NCBI GenBank assembly: GCA_021828285.1
Contig: JAKASG010000022.1
Span: 1 to 41,031, forward strand
Direction of reading: 5' to 3'
Origin: Acidobacteriota bacterium
GTDB lineage: Bacteria; Acidobacteriota; Terriglobia; UBA7540
DNA length: 41,031 nt
This document shows positions 5,935 to 26,561 of the stretch, in pieces; the stretch's first letter is position 1, and the number at the start of each line of letters is the position of its first letter. The translations under genes were made by a program, and so were the position numbers. The notes below the pieces were generated by a model that ran no database searches, had not been told where the DNA came from, and saw nothing but the letters and a program-made list of their open reading frames with translations.

Positions 5935-8795
5935 TGCGGTAACCGTTCGACCTGCGAGCTTGTGTTGCTCACTACCAGGAAGCGCGGCGGGTTCAAATCA
6001 TATCCCACTTCAAACCGCAGCGGACCGACCGGCGTGTTGTAAAGCAATCCCGCGCCGACCGCGTGCACGGTATAGTCGAAATCTTCGGGTTTCTGCGTGA
6101 CAGGACTCTGGCTCACTTTGAACAGGCGCATTCTCCGGATGCTCGAATAGACGTTGCCCATATCGTGGAACAGAACAAGGCCCAGCCGGCCTTGCGCAAA
6201 GCTCGTTCTCAATTCGAACGAGTTGAGAAACAGCGCATCGCCTCCGATGGGAAATCCTGTCTCCGGGTCGCGCGGTCCGGCCTGGTTGATGGAAAAGCCG
6301 CGGTGGGATTCGCTTCCGCCCATGAAAAACCGTTCGGGAAGTGGAATCTGGATCGAGGTTGTGCCTCCATAAGGCGACTCGACTCCGAGGCGAGTGTCGC
6401 GCGCGAAAGTCAGCCAATGGGTGATCGGATAATACGTGGCGTTTTCACCGGAAAACCGGAAAAAGTTTGCCTGCGACCCGAATCCCCTCCAGGAGATTCC
6501 CGCATCCGCAACGGTGTAGGAGCCCCGCGTCGCGTCAATGGGATTGTTGCGGTGGTCGTTTGCGTAACTCAGGCTGAACATTCCGATCCGCGCGGGCTGG
6601 CTCAGAATGGGGATTTCGGCCGGCGAAATCCGATTGGAAATGTCCAGGGCCTGGATGTCGCGGTAATTGAAGCTTGTGGAAATGAACGCATGCGGACTGT
6701 AGCGTTTTTCGAGCGTTACGCCCACTTCTTCACGTTTAGCGGTGAAGGTGAGTACGTTACTGCTCTCCTCGGCGAGCGCGCTGAACCGCAGGCTTACGCC
6801 TCGCCGCCTTTCGAACCGCGGCAGCAGATAAGACCACTCGGCGGATTTCTCGAGCGTTGAAAACTGGGCGCGCAAATCCATCGTTTGGGCTCGTCCACCC
6901 ACGTTGAGCCGGGTCACGTCGAACGACACGCGCGGGCTCGCTTTGTATTGCCCCTGCGGCTGGTTGCTGCCGAGCCGCTGCACATCAATCCCGCCGCCGT
7001 AACTGAGCGTCCATCGCCGTGTTTCTTCGACTTCGACGATGAGCGTTTTTGCGGTCTGTTCGCCTTCGGGCGCCTGTTCGGCGATCTTGACCTGGTTGAA
7101 AATCCCAAGGTCATAAAGCCGCTGCTGGGAGTCGAAGACCTGGCTTTCGTTAACAGGGTCGCCGGGCTTGAGTGCGAGTTGCCTCATAATCAAGCTCTTT
7201 CTCGTGTTTCGAACTCCGACAATTACGATGCGCCCGATCGTTTCGCGGCGGCCCGGCGTCACATCATAGGCGAGGGCGACGCGGTCCGGAGCCGGATGAG
7301 AAACCTTCCAGGTCATATTGGCGTTGACGTATCCCTGATTGCCGAGAAAGGAAAGCACAGTCGCCCGGTCCCGCGGGACGTTTTCGGGCGAATAAGGATG
7401 GCCGGTCCGATTGATGAGCGAAGGGAGCACGGCTTTTTGCATCCCGGTGCTGAGGCCGTTGATACGCAAGCTTTCGATCGTCGTCTGCGGGCCTTCCGAA
7501 ATCACAAAGTAAATGAAAATATCGCCCGCTTGCCCGTTGTAATTGCGCTGGATTTGGGGCGTGACGCGCGCGGCGAGAAAGCCCCGAGCGCGATATGCCC
7601 CTTCGAGCGCAGCGACGTCGCGCTCGAGCAAGCGATGACTGAAAGCCGAGCGCTCCATGACCCATCCTTGCGGACGGATGGAAAGCAGCGGCCCGAGCTG
7701 GTCCGAGGGAATGTGCCGATTGCCTTTAAACGCGTATCCCTGAAGAATGCCGCTCGGCCCAAGATTGACCTGATAAAGGACGTCGAGGTGTTTCGAGTCC
7801 GGCCGGGCGACGCGCGCGATCCGGACTGAAGCATTGAGATATCCGCGCCGCTCGAAGTAATCCTCCAGATCGCGGGTTCCGGCTTCAAGGGCAGATTGAT
7901 TCGCAAGACCCTCCGTAAAAATCGGGAGGATCGTGCGCAGCCGCGCGTCGGAAACGCGCGCGCCTTCAACGCGCACTTGGACGAGGGGGCCGGCGTCAGC
8001 GAACAGCACGAGATTTTCGGTGTTCGTTTTCGGATTGTAATCGTGCTGTGCGATGCGGATGATCGCTTCGGGATAATTGCTTCGGAGATAGAACTGGCGG
8101 ATCTTGGCCACCGCGCCGGCGAGACGCGAAGAAGTCGGACGCAGGCCCGGCCGAAGTCCCCCTTTACGCTTGAGAAGCTCGGAAGGGAAGACCGGCGCAC
8201 CGCGAAATTCGATCTTGCTCAAGCGCGCCGCGGGACCGAGCATGACCTGGAAAGTGATGTTGGCTTCCTGATCGCGCGGGTTGCGAGTGAGGCTGTAACC
8301 GACCATGGCGTGGTGGAAGCCCTCTTGGGCGAGCGCGGATTGGAGGCGTTTTTCAGCTTCGCTGATGCTGTCGCTCAGCAAGGGCGCGCCGAGCCGGAGC
8401 CGCGTTGCATCCGCTAACGATGAAGCCGTAAGTTCGGGCGATGCGCCGGTCACGCTGACGGTCCCGATAAAGTATCGCGCTGAACCCGCGAAAACCAGCA
8501 CGACGCCGCCTGCTTCGCGCCGAGCTTCAGCCCGAAGCCGGATGAACCGGCCTGTCGCGTAAAGCCGCTTCAAACTCGCATTCACTTTGGCGCGCTCGAG
8601 CGGTTCGTTGACCTTCTGGACAATTTCCGAAGTGAAGTTCACCCTCTCGACCGGAGGATCCGTTTCAATACGGATGGCAATCACACGCTCGCCCCATGCC
8701 CCAGTCTGTGGCTGAGCCATTGCAGATTGAAAAGCACTCGCCAGCACGACCGTCAAAATAAATCCGGCAATCCGCAAAATCATACAAGAATTCAT
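5898..8795 (-). CDS. Omp85-family outer-membrane assembly protein (BamA/TamA-like)
   Basis: About 965 residues from the chosen ATG at 8795. This start puts a signal peptide at the very N-terminus (ILRIAGFILTVVLASAF, then SAMAQ). An ATG at 8900 would add a 35-residue hydrophilic lead before it. Residues ~35-600 form a chain of POTRA-like repeats ('VRVEGARVSDARLRTILP', 'GYAFKGNRHIPSDQLGPL', 'IVIVGVRNTRKSLIMRQL' with 'LKPGDPVN'). The last ~350 residues are the bacterial surface antigen barrel, with the conserved loop-6 motif 'SHRGF' near residue 830 and a C-terminal aromatic residue (VGQSF), as in Omp85 beta-signals. The POTRA chain is longer than in E. coli TamA (three) and perhaps BamA (five). 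Being first in an operon with tamB favours a TamA-like role, but a housekeeping BamA cannot be excluded. Confidence 0.88.
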   Translation of the reverse strand: MNSCMILRIAGFILTVVLASAFQSAMAQPQTGAWGERVIAIRIETDPPVERVNFTSEIVQKVNEPLERAKVNASLKRLYATGRFIRLRAEARREAGGVVLVFAGSARYFIGTVSVTGASPELTASSLADATRLRLGAPLLSDSISEAEKRLQSALAQEGFHHAMVGYSLTRNPRDQEANITFQVMLGPAARLSKIEFRGAPVFPSELLKRKGGLRPGLRPTSSRLAGAVAKIRQFYLRSNYPEAIIRIAQHDYNPKTNTENLVLFADAGPLVQVRVEGARVSDARLRTILPIFTEGLANQSALEAGTRDLEDYFERRGYLNASVRIARVARPDSKHLDVLYQVNLGPSGILQGYAFKGNRHIPSDQLGPLLSIRPQGWVMERSAFSHRLLERDVAALEGAYRARGFLAARVTPQIQRNYNGQAGDIFIYFVISEGPQTTIESLRINGLSTGMQKAVLPSLINRTGHPYSPENVPRDRATVLSFLGNQGYVNANMTWKVSHPAPDRVALAYDVTPGRRETIGRIVIVGVRNTRKSLIMRQLALKPGDPVNESQVFDSQQRLYDLGIFNQVKIAEQAPEGEQTAKTLIVEVEETRRWTLSYGGGIDVQRLGSNQPQGQYKASPRVSFDVTRLNVGGRAQTMDLRAQFSTLEKSAEWSYLLPRFERRRGVSLRFSALAEESSNVLTFTAKREEVGVTLEKRYSPHAFISTSFNYRDIQALDISNRISPAEIPILSQPARIGMFSLSYANDHRNNPIDATRGSYTVADAGISWRGFGSQANFFRFSGENATYYPITHWLTFARDTRLGVESPYGGTTSIQIPLPERFFMGGSESHRGFSINQAGPRDPETGFPIGGDALFLNSFELRTSFAQGRLGLVLFHDMGNVYSSIRRMRLFKVSQSPVTQKPEDFDYTVHAVGAGLLYNTPVGPLRFEVGYDLNPPRFLVVSNTSSQVERLPHWNFFISVGQSF

Positions 8796-8911
8796 TGGAC
8801 GGGTGAACGGCCGGCTTGGGCTCCGCGCGACTCGCGCGTTGCCTGGGGAAGTAAATGCCGGATGCGGTTTCGAATTAGTCATTGCGCGTGGCGATTGCAT
8901 CCGTGTTCATT

Positions 8912-8925
8912 CCAAAGACATTATA
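8912..8925 (-). promoter_or_regulatory. Candidate -10 box for the Omp85-SurA-tamB operon
   Basis: On the minus strand a perfect TATAAT lies at 8925-8920, putting a start site near 8913. No good -35 is visible at 17 bp (AGTCAC at 8948-8943). The leader to the ATG at 8795 would be about 118 nt, or about 12 nt to the alternative ATG at 8900. Supported only by the -10 match. Confidence 0.35.
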
Positions 8926-9054
8926 AGGTGCATTGAGAAACGGTGACTCGAAGTTACGAACGCGCGCGATGTTCTTCCAACCCGGTGCGCGAGGCAGGAC
9001 TTATCGAAGCGGATTATTCTGTGGCGGCTTCACCCGCGCGACGGCCGTGCGGCG

Positions 9055-9567
9055 TTAGCCGGCTGGATTGAGCGGGCATGAAAGCCTGTATTTTCCCCAG
9101 GCGATTTCGATTGTGCCGCGGCCTTCGTGCTTCAAGAGACTGATGGCCATTTCATCCACTGGGATTTTCGAGGTCGAGAGTGTCATCGGCGACTCTGCGA
9201 CCTGGGTGCTTGGTTCGTACCTGTTGAATTGCTGCGTCGAGACGATGAGCCGCCACATTGTGGAGTCAACACGCCACACCAGCAAATAGTACGTGCCTTT
9301 GGGTACGACTTTGTCGCCGATGCGAACGGGGCCGTCCGTTTCAAGCGTGGTCGGGACGTCCGCACCCAGGCGCCAAAGCTGGCCCGGCTCAAGGAGTTCT
9401 AAAGGGTTGCGGCCATTGAGCCTGGGTCTTCCGTAGTTAATCGCCACTCGCGTACGGCCGAGAACGAGCCGCGCCGTCCCGCGCGCGTTCCCGTGAGCGC
9501 AGGCCGATGGCGCTTGCGCGGCCAGGGCCGCAAAGAGCAGGATGCCAAGGTGCTTCGGATTGAGCAT
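9055..9567 (-). CDS. Exported DUF2911 protein
   Basis: A 170-residue protein from the ATG at 9567, chosen because AAGGAA lies about 10 nt upstream and a signal peptide follows at once (LGILLFAALAAQAPSACAHG). The body matches DUF2911: 'VAINYGRPRLNGRNPLE' near residues 40-56, 'GQLWRLGADVPTTLET', 'VPKGTYYLLVWRV' and 'IEIAWGKYRLSCPL' at the end. The fold is thought to be a small beta-rich periplasmic domain of unknown function, frequent in Acidobacteria and Bacteroidetes. It starts 20 bp after the stop of the esterase gene on the same strand, so it is probably the last gene of a three-gene unit with the esterase and the small exported protein. No catalytic residues can be named. Confidence 0.8.
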   Translation of the reverse strand: MLNPKHLGILLFAALAAQAPSACAHGNARGTARLVLGRTRVAINYGRPRLNGRNPLELLEPGQLWRLGADVPTTLETDGPVRIGDKVVPKGTYYLLVWRVDSTMWRLIVSTQQFNRYEPSTQVAESPMTLSTSKIPVDEMAISLLKHEGRGTIEIAWGKYRLSCPLNPAG

Positions 9568-15966: not shown

Positions 15967-16503
15967 TCACATTGACGCGCGCATCGGACGGCCGGCAAGA
16001 TCTTCCACGAATTGGATGATGTGCGGATCCCCCCAATCGTAGGCGCCAATGATCTTTTCCGCCAGGTGGCCGTCGCGGCCGAGGATGTAAGTTTCGGGAA
16101 ATTTGAAAGTGCCGAAGCGCGCGGCCATGCTGCCGCCCGGATCGCGCGCGATGGGATAAGTGAGATGATATTGCTTGATGAAGGCTCGAAGCGCCCGGCC
16201 GCTCTCATCCACGCTGACACCGATCACGACCACGCCCCTGCCGTGAAGTTCGGAAGCGAATTGTTCGAGTGAAGGCGTTTCCTCGACGCAAGGCGGACAC
16301 CATGTCGCCCAGAAATTCACCAGTACCACCCGGCCGCGATACTTCGCCAGGCTCACGGGCGCTCCATCCACGCCGGGCAGGACGAAGTCCGGCGCGCGCT
16401 CGCCGATTTTGACCGGACGATTGGATTGGGGACGAAACGCGAGCACGACGATTCCAATGAGGATCGCCGCGAGGAATGCGATTTCGCCGATCTTTTTACT
16501 CAT
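15967..16503 (-). CDS. TlpA/ResA-family membrane-anchored thiol-disulfide oxidoreductase
   Basis: A 178-residue thioredoxin-fold protein held in the inner membrane by an N-terminal helix (residues ~8-23, IAFLAAILIGIVVLAF) and facing the periplasm. The redox motif is WCPPC (Cys69 and Cys72) within 'NFWATWCPPCVEE', as in ResA/TlpA/CcmG. 'FKFPETYIL' carries the cis-proline (Pro136). Such proteins reduce apocytochrome c or other periplasmic thiols, or metal sites such as CuA. Copper-linked function fits the nearby copA but is only context. The gene is convergent with the 67-residue gene and divergent from the GT2 gene, with just 30 bp between the two starts. Confidence 0.88.
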   Translation of the reverse strand: MSKKIGEIAFLAAILIGIVVLAFRPQSNRPVKIGERAPDFVLPGVDGAPVSLAKYRGRVVLVNFWATWCPPCVEETPSLEQFASELHGRGVVVIGVSVDESGRALRAFIKQYHLTYPIARDPGGSMAARFGTFKFPETYILGRDGHLAEKIIGAYDWGDPHIIQFVEDLAGRPMRASM

Positions 16504-21369: not shown

Positions 21370-23502
21370 ATGGAGAGTTTGAGTGTTGAATTAGGAGCAA
21401 CCCAGCTTTCAATCGAAGTGGGAAGAATGGCAAAACAGGCGAACGGGTCTGCTTACGTTCGTTACGGCGATACGGCGGTGCTTGCAGCGGCGTGCGCTGC
21501 GCAGCCGCGGGAAGATATTGATTTCTTTCCGCTGACCGTGGATTACCGGGAATACAGCTATGCGGCGGGGAAGATTCCGGGCGGGTTTTTCAAGCGCGAA
21601 GGCCGGCCAACTGAAAAAGAAATTCTGACTAGCCGGTTGATTGATCGGCCGATCCGGCCCCTATTTCCCGAAGGCTTCAAGGGCGATACGCAGATCATGG
21701 CCATGGTCCTTTCCGCGGATACGGAAAACAACCCGGACGTTATCGGAATGGTTGCGGGGATGACCGCGCTTTATCTTTCGGACATTCCCTTTTTAACACC
21801 GATTGCCGCGATTCGCGTCGGCCTGCTCGAAGGGCGGCTCGTGACGAACCCGACGTACGAAGAAATCAAGGCCAGCTCGCTGAACATGGTGGTTGCGGCG
21901 AGCGAGGCGGCGATCGTGATGGTCGAAGCCGGGGGAAAGGAAGTCTCCGAGGAAGCGATCGCGGAAGCGCTCCAATATGCGCACGGCGAAATCCGAAAGA
22001 TCATCGCCGTCGAGAAGGAGCTTTTTACGAAGCTCGGCGTGAAGAAGCGCGAATACGTTGCGCCCACGCGCAATGAAAAGCTGTTCAATGAAATACGGAA
22101 GAAGATTGAGCCGCAGCTCCGCGATGCGATGGACACTTCGAAATATCCGAAGCTCGAGAGCCAGCGAAAGATTGCCGAATTGCAAAAGGCGCTCATCGAG
22201 ACTTATCCAGAGGATGAGGAACCGCTGCGCAAGGAAGCAGGCCAGTACTTCGATCTTGTGTACGATAGGATCTTCCGCGAAGACGTGGTCCTGAAGCGCC
22301 AGAGGCCCGACCGGAGGGCATTCGACACCGTCCGGCCGATTTCCTGCGAAGTGGGGGTGCTGCCCCGCACGCACGGCTCCGCGCTCTTCACGCGCGGTGA
22401 GACCCAGGCGCTGGTCACGGTGACACTTGGAACGGCCGACGACAGACAGCGCCTCGACGTGCTCGAAGGCGAGGCGTTCAAGCGGTTCATGCTCCATTAC
22501 AATTTTCCGCCTTTCAGCGTGGGCGAGGTGAAAATGGTGCGCGGACCGGGGCGGCGCGAGATCGGCCATGGGGCGCTGGCCGAGCGCGCGCTGGTTACAT
22601 TGATTCCTGAAGAGGACCGCTTTCCCTATACCCTCCGAGTCGTTTCGGAGATTCTCGAGTCCAATGGCTCATCGTCCATGGCGACGGTGTGCGGAGGATG
22701 CCTGGCGCTGATGGACGCCGGAGTGCCCATCAAGGCGCCGGTGGCGGGCATCGCAATGGGACTGGTCATGGAGGGCGAGAAATACTCGATTCTGACCGAT
22801 ATCGCCGGAGCCGAGGACCATTACGGCGACATGGACTTCAAAGTAGCGGGCACGGCGGCCGGCGTGACCGCGCTGCAAATGGACATCAAGACCTCCGGTA
22901 TTACGCCGAAGATCATGGCCGAGGCTCTTGCGCAGGCGAAGACGGCAAGGCTTCACGTGCTTGAGAAAATGCTTGGGGCGCTGCCTGAAACGCGGCCGGA
23001 GATTTCACTCTTTGCTCCTCGCATTTACACCCTTCACATCAATCGCAGCCGCATCGGCGAATTGATCGGACCGGGCGGGAAAGTGGTTCGGGGCATCGTC
23101 GAGCAGACCGGCGCGAAAATTGACGTTGAAGACGACGGCCGAGTCAGCGTGGCCTCGGCGGATGCGGATGCGGCGAACAAGGCGATCAAGATGATCAATG
23201 ACATCATGGCGGAAGCCGAACTTGGCAAGACTTACCTTGGCAAAGTCGTTCGCCTTGCGGACTTCGGCGCATTCGTCGAGATTTTTCCGGGGACGGACGG
23301 ACTGCTTCACATCAGCGAAGTTGCCGAGCATCGCATTCGCGAAATCAGGGACGAATTGAAGGAAGGCGATCAGTTGCTCGTCAAGGTCATCTCGATTGAC
23401 GGCAACAAAATCCGCCTTAGCCGCAAAGCCGTGCTTCGCGAACAGCGCCAGAAAACGGGCCAGGGCGCTGCGGAATCCCCGGAGGCCGGGCCCCAGCAAT
23501 AG
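21370..23502 (+). CDS. pnp: Polynucleotide phosphorylase
   Basis: A 710-residue 3'-5' exoribonuclease that phosphorolyses RNA. The ATG at 21370 is preceded by GGAGGAAAAGG. Domain order is RNase PH 1 (about 1-140), an alpha-helical linker, RNase PH 2 (about 315-540), KH (about 555-620; 'IGELIGPGGKVVRGI') and S1 (about 620-690; 'VVRLADFGAFVEIFPGTDGLLHISE'). Signature segments include 'GKIPGGFFKREGRPTEKE' and 'TRGETQALVTVTLGT' in the catalytic cores, with 'DFKVAGT' near the phosphate site. It forms a trimer and may join a degradosome. It follows rpsO, and a hairpin at 23535-23560 may end the message. Everything expected of the family is present. Confidence 0.97.
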   Translation: MESLSVELGATQLSIEVGRMAKQANGSAYVRYGDTAVLAAACAAQPREDIDFFPLTVDYREYSYAAGKIPGGFFKREGRPTEKEILTSRLIDRPIRPLFPEGFKGDTQIMAMVLSADTENNPDVIGMVAGMTALYLSDIPFLTPIAAIRVGLLEGRLVTNPTYEEIKASSLNMVVAASEAAIVMVEAGGKEVSEEAIAEALQYAHGEIRKIIAVEKELFTKLGVKKREYVAPTRNEKLFNEIRKKIEPQLRDAMDTSKYPKLESQRKIAELQKALIETYPEDEEPLRKEAGQYFDLVYDRIFREDVVLKRQRPDRRAFDTVRPISCEVGVLPRTHGSALFTRGETQALVTVTLGTADDRQRLDVLEGEAFKRFMLHYNFPPFSVGEVKMVRGPGRREIGHGALAERALVTLIPEEDRFPYTLRVVSEILESNGSSSMATVCGGCLALMDAGVPIKAPVAGIAMGLVMEGEKYSILTDIAGAEDHYGDMDFKVAGTAAGVTALQMDIKTSGITPKIMAEALAQAKTARLHVLEKMLGALPETRPEISLFAPRIYTLHINRSRIGELIGPGGKVVRGIVEQTGAKIDVEDDGRVSVASADADAANKAIKMINDIMAEAELGKTYLGKVVRLADFGAFVEIFPGTDGLLHISEVAEHRIREIRDELKEGDQLLVKVISIDGNKIRLSRKAVLREQRQKTGQGAAESPEAGPQQ

Positions 23503-23534
23503 GAAACGGCGCTCGGTCCCGGGTTCGAAACGCA

Positions 23535-23560
23535 GCGGCCAGCTCAGCACAGGCTGCCGC
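23535..23560 (+). terminator. Hairpin after pnp
   Basis: GCGG-(C)-CAGC at 23535-23543 pairs with GCTG-CCGC at 23553-23560, 8 bp with one bulged C and a 9-nt loop, 33 bp after the pnp stop. No T-run follows, so it could be a processing or 3'-end-protecting hairpin. Confidence 0.35.
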
Positions 23561-23581
23561 CCGGACTTTCGAAACAGTTCA

Positions 23582-23590
23582 TGATATACT
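23582..23590 (+). promoter_or_regulatory. Extended -10 promoter for the peroxiredoxin pair
   Basis: TGA-TATACT (23582-23590) is an extended -10. CGGACT at 23562-23567 is a weak -35 at 17 bp. A start near 23597 leaves a leader of about 33 nt with GGAGGT (23617-23622) before GTG 23630. This would let both peroxiredoxin genes be expressed separately from pnp. Confidence 0.45.
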
Positions 23591-23629
23591 CGGGAGCGTT
23601 TTTGACACTTGGGCGTTGGAGGTGCGATC

Positions 23630-24157
23630 GTGAAGCGGCATGCAGCGATTGTAATGCTGGCGGCAGCGTTCATCGGGACGGCGCAAGCGGGCCGCGCGGC
23701 GGCGCTCAAGGTGGGCGAACGGGCGCCGAACTTCGCGCTGCGCGACCAGTCCGGGAAATTGATTCGATTGAGCGATTATCACGGCAAAACCGTGGTTCTG
23801 GCTTTCTATGTTCTTGCATTCACCGGCGGGTGAACGCTGGAAATGAAGGGATATCAGTCTGATATCTCGAAGTTTGAAAAAGCCAACAGTCAGATCCTCG
23901 CCATCAGCACGGACAGCCCGTCTGCGAACAAGGCTTTCGCGGCGGAACTCAAGCTGACTTTTCCTGTGCTGAGCGACCCGACGGGCCGCGTGACGCGCGA
24001 ATACGGCATCCTGAATCCCAAATTCGGGTTTGCCAATCGCACGACGTTCGTCATAAACGGCCAAGGAATCATCCGGGACGTTGAGACCGGCAGCGCTGCA
24101 CTCAATCCTTCGGGCGCGTGCAACGTTTCCACCTCAATGAGTCACGGCAAGAAATAG
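23630..24157 (+). CDS. Exported peroxiredoxin with in-frame TGA (selenocysteine) at the peroxidatic site
   Basis: A 175-residue AhpC/TSA-type peroxiredoxin whose frame is interrupted only by TGA at 23831-23833 (codon 68). GTG 23630 is chosen for GGAGGT seven bases before it and because it opens a signal peptide ([16 protein letters not shown]). The region around the TGA reads '[18 protein letters not shown]', aligning with AhpE/BCP 'FFPLAFTGICQGEL', so the TGA takes the place of the peroxidatic cysteine. 'AISTDSP', '[16 protein letters not shown]' and '[13 protein letters not shown]' continue the fold without loss. The only cysteine of the mature protein is Cys164 near the C-terminus, a possible resolving partner. 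It would reduce peroxides in the periplasm. The stop reading would leave a 67-residue fragment. A stem-loop follows the TGA. Next gene begins 7 bp later. Confidence 0.85.
23831..23868 (+). promoter_or_regulatory. Candidate bacterial SECIS element 1
   Basis: After the TGA at 23831-23833, arms 23848-23856 and 23860-23868 form a 9-bp stem (one G-U) capped by loop GUC (23857-23859), or AGUCU if the last pair opens. The loop G is 23 nt after the TGA. Bacterial SECIS hairpins start within the same gene, about 16-37 nt after the UGA, and E. coli fdhF also needs a G-U in the loop. Confidence 0.65.
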
Positions 24158-24164
24158 TCGTCCC

Positions 24165-24632
24165 ATGCCATTGCCAGAAGCCGGCGACGCCGCGCCTGAT
24201 TTCGAACTGCCCGCGCACGACGGCAGCAGCGTGCGGCTGGCCGATTTCCGCGGCAGGAAGAATGTCGTTCTCGCCTTCTTCTCGATGGCCAATACGCCGG
24301 GGTGAACCCGCGAACTCAAGGCGTACCAGGATGGCCTCGCCGAATTTGAAAAAGCGCAAACTCAAGTTCTCGGATTGAGCGTCAACCGTGAGGCGGCGAA
24401 CGCCGCCTTCGCGAAGAAAATCGGCGCTTCCTTCCCTCTGCTCTGCGACACGACGCGAGAGGTTACAAAGCGTTACGGCGCACTCAGCAAATTTCGCTTG
24501 GCTCGCCGCGTAACGTTCGTCGTGGACAAGGACGGCATCATTCGCCACGTTGACACTGACCGCGCTGCATTGGATCCCAGCTCCACCCTCGACGCCTGCC
24601 GGCAACTGAGCGCCGCCTCTCACTCGCGGTAA
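24165..24632 (+). CDS. Cytoplasmic BCP-like peroxiredoxin with in-frame TGA (selenocysteine) at the peroxidatic site
   Basis: A 155-residue peroxiredoxin starting at ATG 24165, 7 bp after the previous gene, with no signal peptide and no clear Shine-Dalgarno, which suggests coupling. The frame has one TGA at 24303-24305 (codon 47). The surroundings, '[18 protein letters not shown]', match BCP/thiol peroxidase 'F.P...TPGCT.E', so the TGA again replaces the peroxidatic cysteine. '[11 protein letters not shown]' at the start, '[16 protein letters not shown]' and '[14 protein letters not shown]' are standard. Cysteines are Cys94 and Cys145; Cys145 lies in '[12 protein letters not shown]', comparable with 'AALNPSGAC' of the first gene, and could resolve a selenenic acid. 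It is a paralogue of the upstream gene but cytoplasmic. Confidence 0.85.
24303..24341 (+). promoter_or_regulatory. Candidate bacterial SECIS element 2
   Basis: After the TGA at 24303-24305, GGCG (24320-24323) pairs with CGCC (24338-24341), then an internal loop, then CCA (24326-24328) with TGG (24332-24334), capped by GGA (24329-24331). The first loop G is 23 nt after the TGA, exactly as in element 1. The stem is weaker and the loop has no GU, but a G in the first two loop positions is kept. Confidence 0.5.
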
Positions 24633-24668
24633 TTAGCAGGCGGGGGACTCTCAGCAACCCGGTGCTTC

Positions 24669-26561
24669 CTATTTGTAGAGATCAATGGAAATGATCTTGC
24701 CTTGGTGCGGATGGCCGGCGATGCCATGGAAAGTGACGCGGGCGCGCCGGCCTTTGAGGTCCTGGCAAGGGTGAAGCACCCCGGTGGGGGAGTATCTGAT
24801 GGCGCGGAACCGGATATTGAAGTAATCATCGGCGTAAAACTTGAACGATTCGTGCGGCCCATGGAGGTTGATCTCCATCCCTGCCGATCGCGTGCATTGG
24901 ACAGCCGTTATGTCCCCGGCGGCCGTAGCGCTTCCACGGCGCACGAGTTCGGGAGGGTGGATGGGAAGCTGCGGGCCCGGCGCGGACGCCGGCTGCTCCG
25001 GTGCAAAGCTTGATGCTTTCGTTTCTTGATTCGCCTCGGCCTTCCCCGCCGCTTGCGCGCGGGCGGCTTCCGCTTTCTGGTACGCCATATATCTCTGAGC
25101 TTGTCGAACCACTTCTTCAGCAACGCTCGATTCCGCCATGGAGTGAGCGAAGGGTTCAGCGCTTTCTGCGACGCGGATGGCGTTCTCCGGTTGCATCATC
25201 TGAAGCAGGACTTGAGCCGTTGTGATGCGGTAACCAAAATTACTCGGATCAAGTTGGACGGCCATGACGGCGTCCGTGTGGGCTTGATGGAAGTGCTCAC
25301 CGCGTGACGAATAGAACGAGGCCAAGGCGTTCCACGCGGGCGCAAACTTTCGATTAATATGGACGGATTCGCGGAGGCTTGACTCGACGCGCGCTTCGGT
25401 CGCGGCGTCCATCGGCTGGCTCATTGCTATCGTCCCGTAATAATATTGCGTCAGGTAATTTTGGGTGTTCAGCTGGACGGCCCGCGCGAACCATTGTTCG
25501 GCCTTCGCCACGTGCCCTTGGCGATATTCGAGGAAGCCCATGCTCTCACAGGGCGTGGCGTCCTGCGGATCGAGTTTGATCGCGTCTTCGAGCATCGCGC
25601 GTCCTGCGGAAACATTGCCCGTTGCCGCGAGAAAGTCCCCGCGCACAGCTTCCGCAGCAGATCGTGAAAGCGGCCTTGCCACGAAGGTGCTGTCGTCAAC
25701 GACGGTTGAGCCTTTGACGCGAATGGCCGTATAGCTGAATAGCCGGACGTACCGATCGAGGTTGTTCTCCAGGTCGTCGAGATTGCCGAAAGCTTCGGTG
25801 GCCGCCAAAACCGGGTCCATCTTGTTGCCCAGCAGTTGGATGTATTCGGCAATGAGGCTTCTATTTTGCTTGAACCCCTGGGACATCAGATAGTGCGTCA
25901 AGGCCCAGGTTTCGGCATCGAAGACCGTCATTTTGTCTTCCCGATTGTAATAAGGCGACCGGCGATTGACCGCGAGGAGAGTTTTCAGCGGAATCATCTC
26001 CGTTTGTCGGAGCACGCTCAGATATGCTCCGTCGGGCTTGCCCAGCACAACCTCTTTATTTTCGATGAGTGAATCGCCGTAGTATTCCGAAAGCCCCTGG
26101 CTGAGCCACAATGGCACCCGCATGGGGCTCAGACCGGCGAGGATAAAAGTGTAGCCCTGGAGCGGCGTGCGAAAGGATGAGTCATTACCCGTATTAAGCT
26201 GAATCAGCGCGTAATCTTTTTCGCGACTCTCCTCGAACCATCCCGTCCATTGCGGCGCGCCCTTGAGATGCGCCTGGGGCGGCATTAGGGCTTCCAATTC
26301 TGCGCGGTCCTTGACGGCGATGATGACAAAAGGCGTGCTTGGGTCGAGGCGGATTTCCGGAAAGGCAAGGCGAAATGCGGCACGAACGCGCTCGAAGCCG
26401 CCGGCAACGTGCTGCGCCTGCTTTGGACCGGCGTCGCTGACCACTGTGAAGTGCGGACTTCGCACTTCGAGCCAAACAGGGGGCCTGGCGCGCGCAAAGA
26501 CACTCGCTGGAAGGAGCAGCGCCCATACGGAAATCCATTGATAAATACGGCATCGTCCCAT
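24669..26561 (-). CDS. Exported TPR protein with a degenerate gluzincin-like domain
   Basis: A 630-residue exported protein: signal peptide at ~8-24 (QWISVWALLLPASVFARA). A peptidase MA-like region follows (about 30-230) with 'WLEVRSPHFTVVSDAG' and 'VPLWLSQGLSEYYGDS' (150-164). TPR repeats occupy about 300-470 ('EDAIKLDPQDATPCESMGFLEYRQG', 'KAEQWFARAVQLNT', 'VMAVQLDPSNFGYRITTAQVLL'). A Pro/Ala/Gln-rich linker leads to a C-terminal beta domain containing 'PCQDLKGRRARVTFHG'. In active relatives an HExxH precedes the 'W...GL.EYY' helix; here the place reads QGYTFI (135-140), so His and Glu are gone and proteolysis is unlikely. Probably a periplasmic scaffold or binding protein. It is convergent with the peroxiredoxin pair (36 bp). 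Confidence 0.72.
   Translation of the reverse strand: MGRCRIYQWISVWALLLPASVFARARPPVWLEVRSPHFTVVSDAGPKQAQHVAGGFERVRAAFRLAFPEIRLDPSTPFVIIAVKDRAELEALMPPQAHLKGAPQWTGWFEESREKDYALIQLNTGNDSSFRTPLQGYTFILAGLSPMRVPLWLSQGLSEYYGDSLIENKEVVLGKPDGAYLSVLRQTEMIPLKTLLAVNRRSPYYNREDKMTVFDAETWALTHYLMSQGFKQNRSLIAEYIQLLGNKMDPVLAATEAFGNLDDLENNLDRYVRLFSYTAIRVKGSTVVDDSTFVARPLSRSAAEAVRGDFLAATGNVSAGRAMLEDAIKLDPQDATPCESMGFLEYRQGHVAKAEQWFARAVQLNTQNYLTQYYYGTIAMSQPMDAATEARVESSLRESVHINRKFAPAWNALASFYSSRGEHFHQAHTDAVMAVQLDPSNFGYRITTAQVLLQMMQPENAIRVAESAEPFAHSMAESSVAEEVVRQAQRYMAYQKAEAARAQAAGKAEANQETKASSFAPEQPASAPGPQLPIHPPELVRRGSATAAGDITAVQCTRSAGMEINLHGPHESFKFYADDYFNIRFRAIRYSPTGVLHPCQDLKGRRARVTFHGIAGHPHQGKIISIDLYK

Follow-up and report, generated by a model that had tools for sequence, protein, structure and literature searches.

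Adjacent peroxiredoxin genes with TGA at the catalytic codon: a predicted pair of paralogous selenoproteins in an Acidobacteriota genome

Introduction

Peroxiredoxins with selenocysteine (Sec) at the peroxidatic position are already known from bacteria. They belong to PF00578/COG1225, carry a TxxU site and were first found in Eubacterium acidaminophilum; the two genes described here share with them the fold family, the Thr three residues before the catalytic position and, as predicted, the peroxidatic Sec (available portions of PMC13188914 and PMC9312934). They differ in lacking the Pro of the PxxxTxxU motif that the available text of PMC13188914 gives for Sec peroxiredoxins, and in forming a paralogue pair with a split predicted location. 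More than one such enzyme per organism is on record, with 91 Sec peroxiredoxins in 78 organisms (PMC5029168, in part) and two in Alkaliphilus metalliredigenes (PMC1794560, in part).

Adjacent selenoprotein genes are likewise known. The available portions of PMC13188914 list grdAB, prdBC, frh/hdr, a peroxiredoxin with a SELENOW-like protein, a peroxiredoxin-like with an AhpD-like protein, and the SAO and Tso operons. The present locus resembles these in the adjacency of its genes; by the description in those portions, however, the known clusters unite different proteins (Tso neighbours aside), whereas here the neighbours are paralogues of one enzyme type. We found no tandem Sec/Sec peroxiredoxin pair in the open-licence literature, a weak absence given its partial coverage. 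PMC13188914, PMC1794560, PMC9312934, PMC12013277 and PMC5029168, in the portions available, describe Sec peroxiredoxins and mixed selenoprotein operons and no tandem Sec peroxiredoxin pair, and those of PMC2398784 gave no match on operons, adjacency or Acidobacteria. A thin search of the same literature found PxxxTxxU in one paper only and the combination of selenocysteine, peroxiredoxin and "active-site proline" in none.

Results

The gene pair

The window is the whole stretch of DNA that was analysed, 41,031 nucleotides of contig JAKASG010000022.1 (assembly GCA_021828285.1). Its positions 23630-24632 hold two AhpC/TSA peroxiredoxin genes, each with TGA at the peroxidatic-Cys codon. The features, with the evidence for each, are:

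23618..23622, + strand: Shine-Dalgarno-like GGAGG, 7 nt upstream of the copy 1 GTG (sequence reading)
23630..24157, + strand: copy 1, predicted Sec peroxiredoxin gene with a signal-peptide-like N-terminus, 175 aa (frame, Pfam, hydrophobicity)
23831..23833, + strand: putative Sec codon TGA at the copy 1 peroxidatic position, FTGG-U-T (frame and alignment)
24165..24632, + strand: copy 2, predicted Sec peroxiredoxin gene without a signal-like stretch, 155 aa (frame, Pfam, hydrophobicity)
24303..24305, + strand: putative Sec codon TGA at the copy 2 peroxidatic position, TPG-U-T (frame and alignment)

Copy 1 starts with GTG at 23630 and stops with TAG at 24155-24157, its single in-frame TGA being codon 68. 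Copy 2 starts with ATG at 24165 and stops with TAA at 24630-24632, with codon 47 as its single in-frame TGA. The gap between the genes is 7 bases, and the two TGAs lie 472 nt apart. Translated with C at the TGA, both match Pfam AhpC-TSA (PF00578) far above its cut-off of 26 bits, copy 1 at 132.1 bits (E 1.3e-38) and copy 2 at 126.9 bits (E 5.5e-37). A first-pass annotation, made from the letters alone, had described both frames as intact save for one TGA at the active-site Cys codon; the coordinates and the domain matches bear this out for both. The closest solved relatives in sequence are AhpE/PrxQ-like Cys peroxiredoxins (PDB 4x1u, 1xvw and 2ywn), with copy 1 matching 4x1u at E 5e-27 and copy 2 matching 2ywn at E 1.2e-22. 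In 2ywn a Cys stands where the window copies would have Sec, and presumably the same holds for the AhpE structures. The NCBI PrxU model (NF040737), which we take to be of the E. acidaminophilum type, gives the copies 73.5 and 41.9 bits with C at the Sec codon, far under its cut-off of 270.

Upstream of the pair lies a 735-aa gene that we take to be PNPase-like. A promoter and terminator scan of 23400-24800 returned no terminator and a single promoter-like site, on the opposite strand. Elsewhere in the window (16060-16482, - strand) is a thioredoxin-fold gene whose WCPPC site has Cys and not Sec; from the motif, it is presumably TlpA/ResA-like.

Selenocysteine machinery and other in-frame TGAs of the source genome

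The source genome is a draft of 119 contigs and 92.7% completeness. It contains a tRNA-Sec (72.7 bits, anticodon TCA, confirmed with ARAGORN), and profile searches matched SelA at 561.3 bits, SelB at 349.8 bits and SelD at 377.7 bits. tRNA matches of about 52 bits or less probably reflect cross-matching by other tRNAs, since similar ones also turn up in the control genomes, and were not counted. The first-pass annotation had tied its Sec interpretation to the presence of selA, selB, selC (tRNA-Sec) and selD, and all four are there.

The selD match (L018 1353; C9:1323-2243) has one in-frame TGA, in an AAG-U-AAK context, and the SelD of this genome probably contains Sec itself. Among 13 AhpC-TSA matches in the genome, eight are without TGA, one of these eight being TlpA-like. 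A third peroxiredoxin-like gene (L104 1627; C54:5757-6152) has TGA at the catalytic codon (FYALDFTPV-U) and likewise lacks Pro at -7, and two further AhpC-TSA matches, L107 (C43:85164-85538) and L110 (C34:11590-11802), have one in-frame TGA each.

The pair in related genomes

Copy 1 was searched in 101 genomes, 38 of the same family and 62 from outside it. Forty stretches, picked by hand roughly from the top of the match table, together with the window yielded 61 close genes; this set excludes nine genes in eight distant named loci (L091-L098), and also L099, which is below the bit cut. The catalytic codon is TGA in 55 of the 61, both window copies included, and Cys in the other six, so the Cys homologues with which the first-pass annotation proposed alignment do occur at the same codon.

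At least 19 of the 38 same-family genomes hold a pair of TGA genes, and the true number may be higher because some contigs end beside the gene (L052 and L079, for example); the codon is TGA in all 38 copies. In these 19 stretches both TGA genes are on one strand, with their TGAs 480-694 nt apart in 18; in L067 the distance is 2303 nt, and the members are separated by open frames of 229 and 264 aa. Between copy 2 of the window and copy 2 of L061, 30 of 45 residues are identical before the TGA and 65 of 104 after it. The TGA in all 38 relative copies and the conservation of protein past the codon argue that its position is not due to chance. The 62 genomes outside the family gave no close-subfamily pair among the matches listed. 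The first-pass annotation had argued that two chance errors at one codon were improbable and that Sec accounts for both TGAs, and had named loss of conservation past the codon in relatives as a finding that would count against it; with 38 of 38 pair copies carrying TGA, conserved sequence beyond it and Sec machinery in the genome, its interpretation is supported.

Among the matches listed, 45 genomes have a TGA copy that scores 100 bits or more; a tRNA-Sec of at least 58 bits is present in 39 of them, against 36 of the other 56 (Fisher p 0.012). The association is moderate only, because many genomes have a tRNA-Sec without a close TGA copy among those matches. Renewed searches of the remaining six (G007, G017, G034, G037, G071 and G083, two of them 97-98% complete) gave no clear tRNA-Sec, and SelB is above its cut-off in all six. 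G012 (88% complete), from which a Cys copy alone was fetched, has neither tRNA-Sec nor SelB above cut-off.

Two side observations concern neighbouring loci. A gene of 149-150 aa, which we take to be small heat-shock protein-like, lies near the pair in all three relatives for which frames were listed (L061 1209-1661, L063 3367-3816 and L067 1072-1524). In a genome of another family, two distant peroxiredoxin matches with one TGA each lie close together on the same strand (G085:C58:7893-8312 and 8697-9104, the second being L121); this is perhaps an independent pair.

A SECIS-like hairpin after the TGA

Each window copy has a candidate bacterial SECIS (bSECIS) hairpin, with the triloop 23 nt after the UGA in both:

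23841..23875, + strand: bacterial SECIS-like hairpin of copy 1, triloop 23857-23859 (folding, family alignment)
24320..24341, + strand: weaker SECIS-like hairpin of copy 2, triloop 24329-24331 (family alignment)

The available portions of PMC13188914 describe bSECIS elements as having a loop of 3-9 nt with G in the first two places, an upper stem of 4-16 bp, the loop 16-37 nt after the UGA and an energy of -7.5 kcal/mol or lower. The copy 1 hairpin lies within all these limits, with a GUC loop, a 9-bp stem and -11.3 kcal/mol (z -3.05 against synonymous-codon shuffles). That of copy 2 has a GGA loop on a stem of 3 bp and 4 bp split by an internal loop, with an A-C mismatch at the fourth pair and -7.7 to -8.9 kcal/mol, and it is no more stable than shuffled sequence (z 0.28 and 0.66 for dinucleotide and synonymous shuffles; 0.37 in the synonymous shuffles run over the family). 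The z of +0.37 speaks against this hairpin when it is considered by itself, although its loop position, loop sequence and inner three pairs match the family. Rfam, applied to the window with gathering thresholds, returned no match, and the hairpins were instead scored directly.

With the U of UGA as nt 1, the triloop occupies nt 27-29, and the three innermost pairs each form in every one of the 55 close TGA genes. The loop is GGC in 37, GTC in 7, GGA in 7 and GGG in 4. Counting the six innermost pairs of every gene gives 330 cells, of which 314 are paired; 1000 synonymous-codon shuffles give 157 +/- 6 (maximum 180), and sliding the position by 1-3 nt gives 61-162. The cells are not independent events, since the 55 genes are related. 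The third inner pair is T-A in 46 genes and C-G in nine. This follows the Tyr codon before the loop, which is TAT with GAT after the loop in the 46 and TAC with GGY in the nine, and never mixed, so that the swap couples a silent change in the Tyr codon to a change from Asp to Gly. Elsewhere downstream in the same genes TAC outnumbers TAT by 71 to 21, compared with TAT in 46 of 55 at the hairpin. The set of nine includes L082, which is distant on the tree, and the change at the third pair therefore probably arose more than once.

The first hairpin pair is present in two of the six close Cys genes. Scored against synonymous shuffles, the 55 Sec genes have a mean folding z of -1.54 (37 under -1) and the six Cys genes one of -0.50 (two under -1). 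Of 13 Sec genes fetched later, which had no part in defining the hairpin, ten have all three inner pairs, some in other compensatory versions, and three have no hairpin at this place; over all 13, 54 of 78 cells are paired. In distant peroxiredoxins the position fails, with 34 of 114 inner cells paired in 19 Sec genes, much like the 39 of 120 in 20 Cys genes, and we confine the covariation claim to the close subfamily for this reason.

The active site

Thr is present at -3 of the peroxidatic residue in both window copies. The signature Pro of PxxxTxxC/U at -7 is absent: copy 1 has Val at this place and copy 2 has Ser, a point that the first-pass annotation overlooked. When the 55 close TGA genes are joined with the 13 fetched later, the Pro is absent in 64 of these 68 rows (46 Val, 14 Ile, 2 Leu, 1 Ala, 1 Ser) and present in L088, L157, L163 and L164. 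Judged by these alignments, absence of the Pro is a mark of most of the close Sec subfamily. Three of the six close Cys genes keep it (L084-L086); the other three, which nest among the Sec rows, share its absence and so look like reversions from the Sec subfamily. Among 20 distant TGA genes, 19 have a T/S..U site and all 19 keep the Pro (the twentieth, L130, is of another type and was set aside), as do 20 of 20 distant Cys genes. A tie between Sec as such and loss of the Pro was rejected on those 19 distant Sec genes. The archaeal Cys homologues L091 and L092 (Cenarchaeum) have SSPVC sites with Val at -7, so loss of the Pro is not exclusive to the Sec branch.

Unlike the AhpE/PrxQ-like enzymes, neither window copy has a Cys at +5, and each has one near the C-terminus instead. 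A near-C-terminal Cys column is occupied in 53 of the 61 close genes, copy 2 among them; in copy 1 the column holds Ser, and a Cys stands three residues before it. Seven of the 61 have no Cys within the last 28 aligned residues, one of them (L069) adjoining unread bases. Our likeliest guess from the alignment is that the C-terminal Cys is the resolving thiol, and a 1-Cys mechanism is possible for some members.

Duplication and predicted location

A maximum-likelihood tree was built from the 61 close genes with three distant Cys rows added, 64 rows in all. In all 20 pairs (the window and 19 relatives) one member falls in a group of 27 rows with moderate support (84/87) and its partner outside it. 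We call the member inside this group the second paralogue; it is downstream in 15 pairs and upstream in five (L054, L055, L067, L070 and L071). The group also contains L077, a gene of another family, so either the duplication may predate the family or the gene was transferred. Copy 2 of the window sits in a starred clade of eight rows (99/98), every one without a signal-like stretch, and copy 1 is on a long branch (0.6) of uncertain placement. At least five changes between Sec and Cys are needed on the tree, four of them forced by starred branches (the distant Cys outgroup counted), and L074, L075 and L087 are the Cys rows nested within Sec rows.

Location was judged from the best 11-residue Kyte-Doolittle mean within the stretch of at most 45 residues that precedes the domain, a heuristic and not a signal-peptide predictor, with a cut of 1.9 chosen after the values were seen. 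Copy 1 of the window reaches 2.79, which is signal-like, and copy 2 reaches -0.5. On this basis copy 2 would act in the cytoplasm, and copy 1 on the far side of the inner membrane. The first paralogue scores at least 2.15 in 20 of 20 pairs and looks exported. The second scores at least 2.49 in seven, where it too looks exported, and under 1.9 in 13, a count that includes L061, whose stretch is too short for a score, and the borderline L064 (1.66) and L065 (1.50). The exported/cytoplasmic split proposed by the first-pass annotation thus stands for the window by this heuristic, but it is not universal, since 13 of the 20 pairs are split and seven have two exported-looking members.

Discussion

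We give a probability of roughly 95% to the reading that the two genes are an operon-like pair of paralogous selenoproteins, with hairpin-directed decoding of both UGAs by SelB and peroxiredoxins split across the inner membrane. The pair would be co-transcribed, and SelB with Sec-tRNA-Sec would decode each UGA, directed by the short hairpin whose triloop lies 23 nt past it. The selenolate of each AhpE/PrxQ-like (AhpC-TSA) product would then attack peroxide, outside the inner membrane for copy 1 and inside the cytoplasm for copy 2, and the Cys near the C-terminus may serve as the resolving thiol. The sequence itself shows the frames, the place of the codon, the machinery, the conservation and, within the subfamily, the covarying hairpin; the insertion of Sec, the peroxidase activity, the locations, the role of the Cys and co-transcription are inferred.

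In a draft assembly of 119 contigs one might suspect mistakes in the reads or in the assembly, or decaying genes that have each gained a nonsense mutation, but a TGA shared by 55 of 61 close homologues across many separate genomes, with conserved protein downstream and a conserved hairpin, makes both hardly credible. Equally far-fetched is a changed code in which TGA means Trp, Cys or Gly throughout the genome. Several genes do have an in-frame TGA, L107 and L110 among them; against this, internal TGAs are absent from selA, selB and the large neighbouring frames of 735, 630 and 520 aa, the four TGAs that could be placed (both window copies, L104 and selD) are at known or likely Sec positions, and the genome has Sec machinery. 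Errors, pseudogenes and a changed code were rejected on the conservation of TGA in relatives, the TGA-free large frames and that machinery.

Two other alternatives accept the selenoproteins and differ on what they do or where. Since Sec decoding inherently couples readthrough of UGA to the supply of selenium, the codon could be mainly a selenium-controlled switch, giving the full enzyme with selenium and a product cut short at the active site under selenium scarcity. This follows from how such decoding works, but plain Sec decoding accounts for the same sequence facts and we consider a switch improbable. It is a little less improbable, though still unlikely, that copy 1 stays anchored in the membrane by an uncleaved signal rather than being released; the hydrophobic stretch is the sole evidence for its export, but an AQA-G site follows it.

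Returning to the selenoprotein pair, a broader account is that this is a distinct selenium-dependent peroxide defence from an old duplication, in which loss of the Pro was tolerated or favoured by the selenolate and the nested Cys genes are later reversions from Sec to Cys. We offer it tentatively, at somewhat less than even odds. If it is true, duplicated Sec enzymes are kept as a pair, in the window on two sides of the inner membrane. A gene caller that ends frames at TGA would truncate the two genes at their active-site codons. Such pairs are widespread among related bacteria (at least 19 of the 38 same-family genomes), and with its predicted Sec pairs, differing predicted locations, scattered changes between Sec and Cys and mostly missing proline, the subfamily may be a natural set in which to study why an enzyme keeps selenium.
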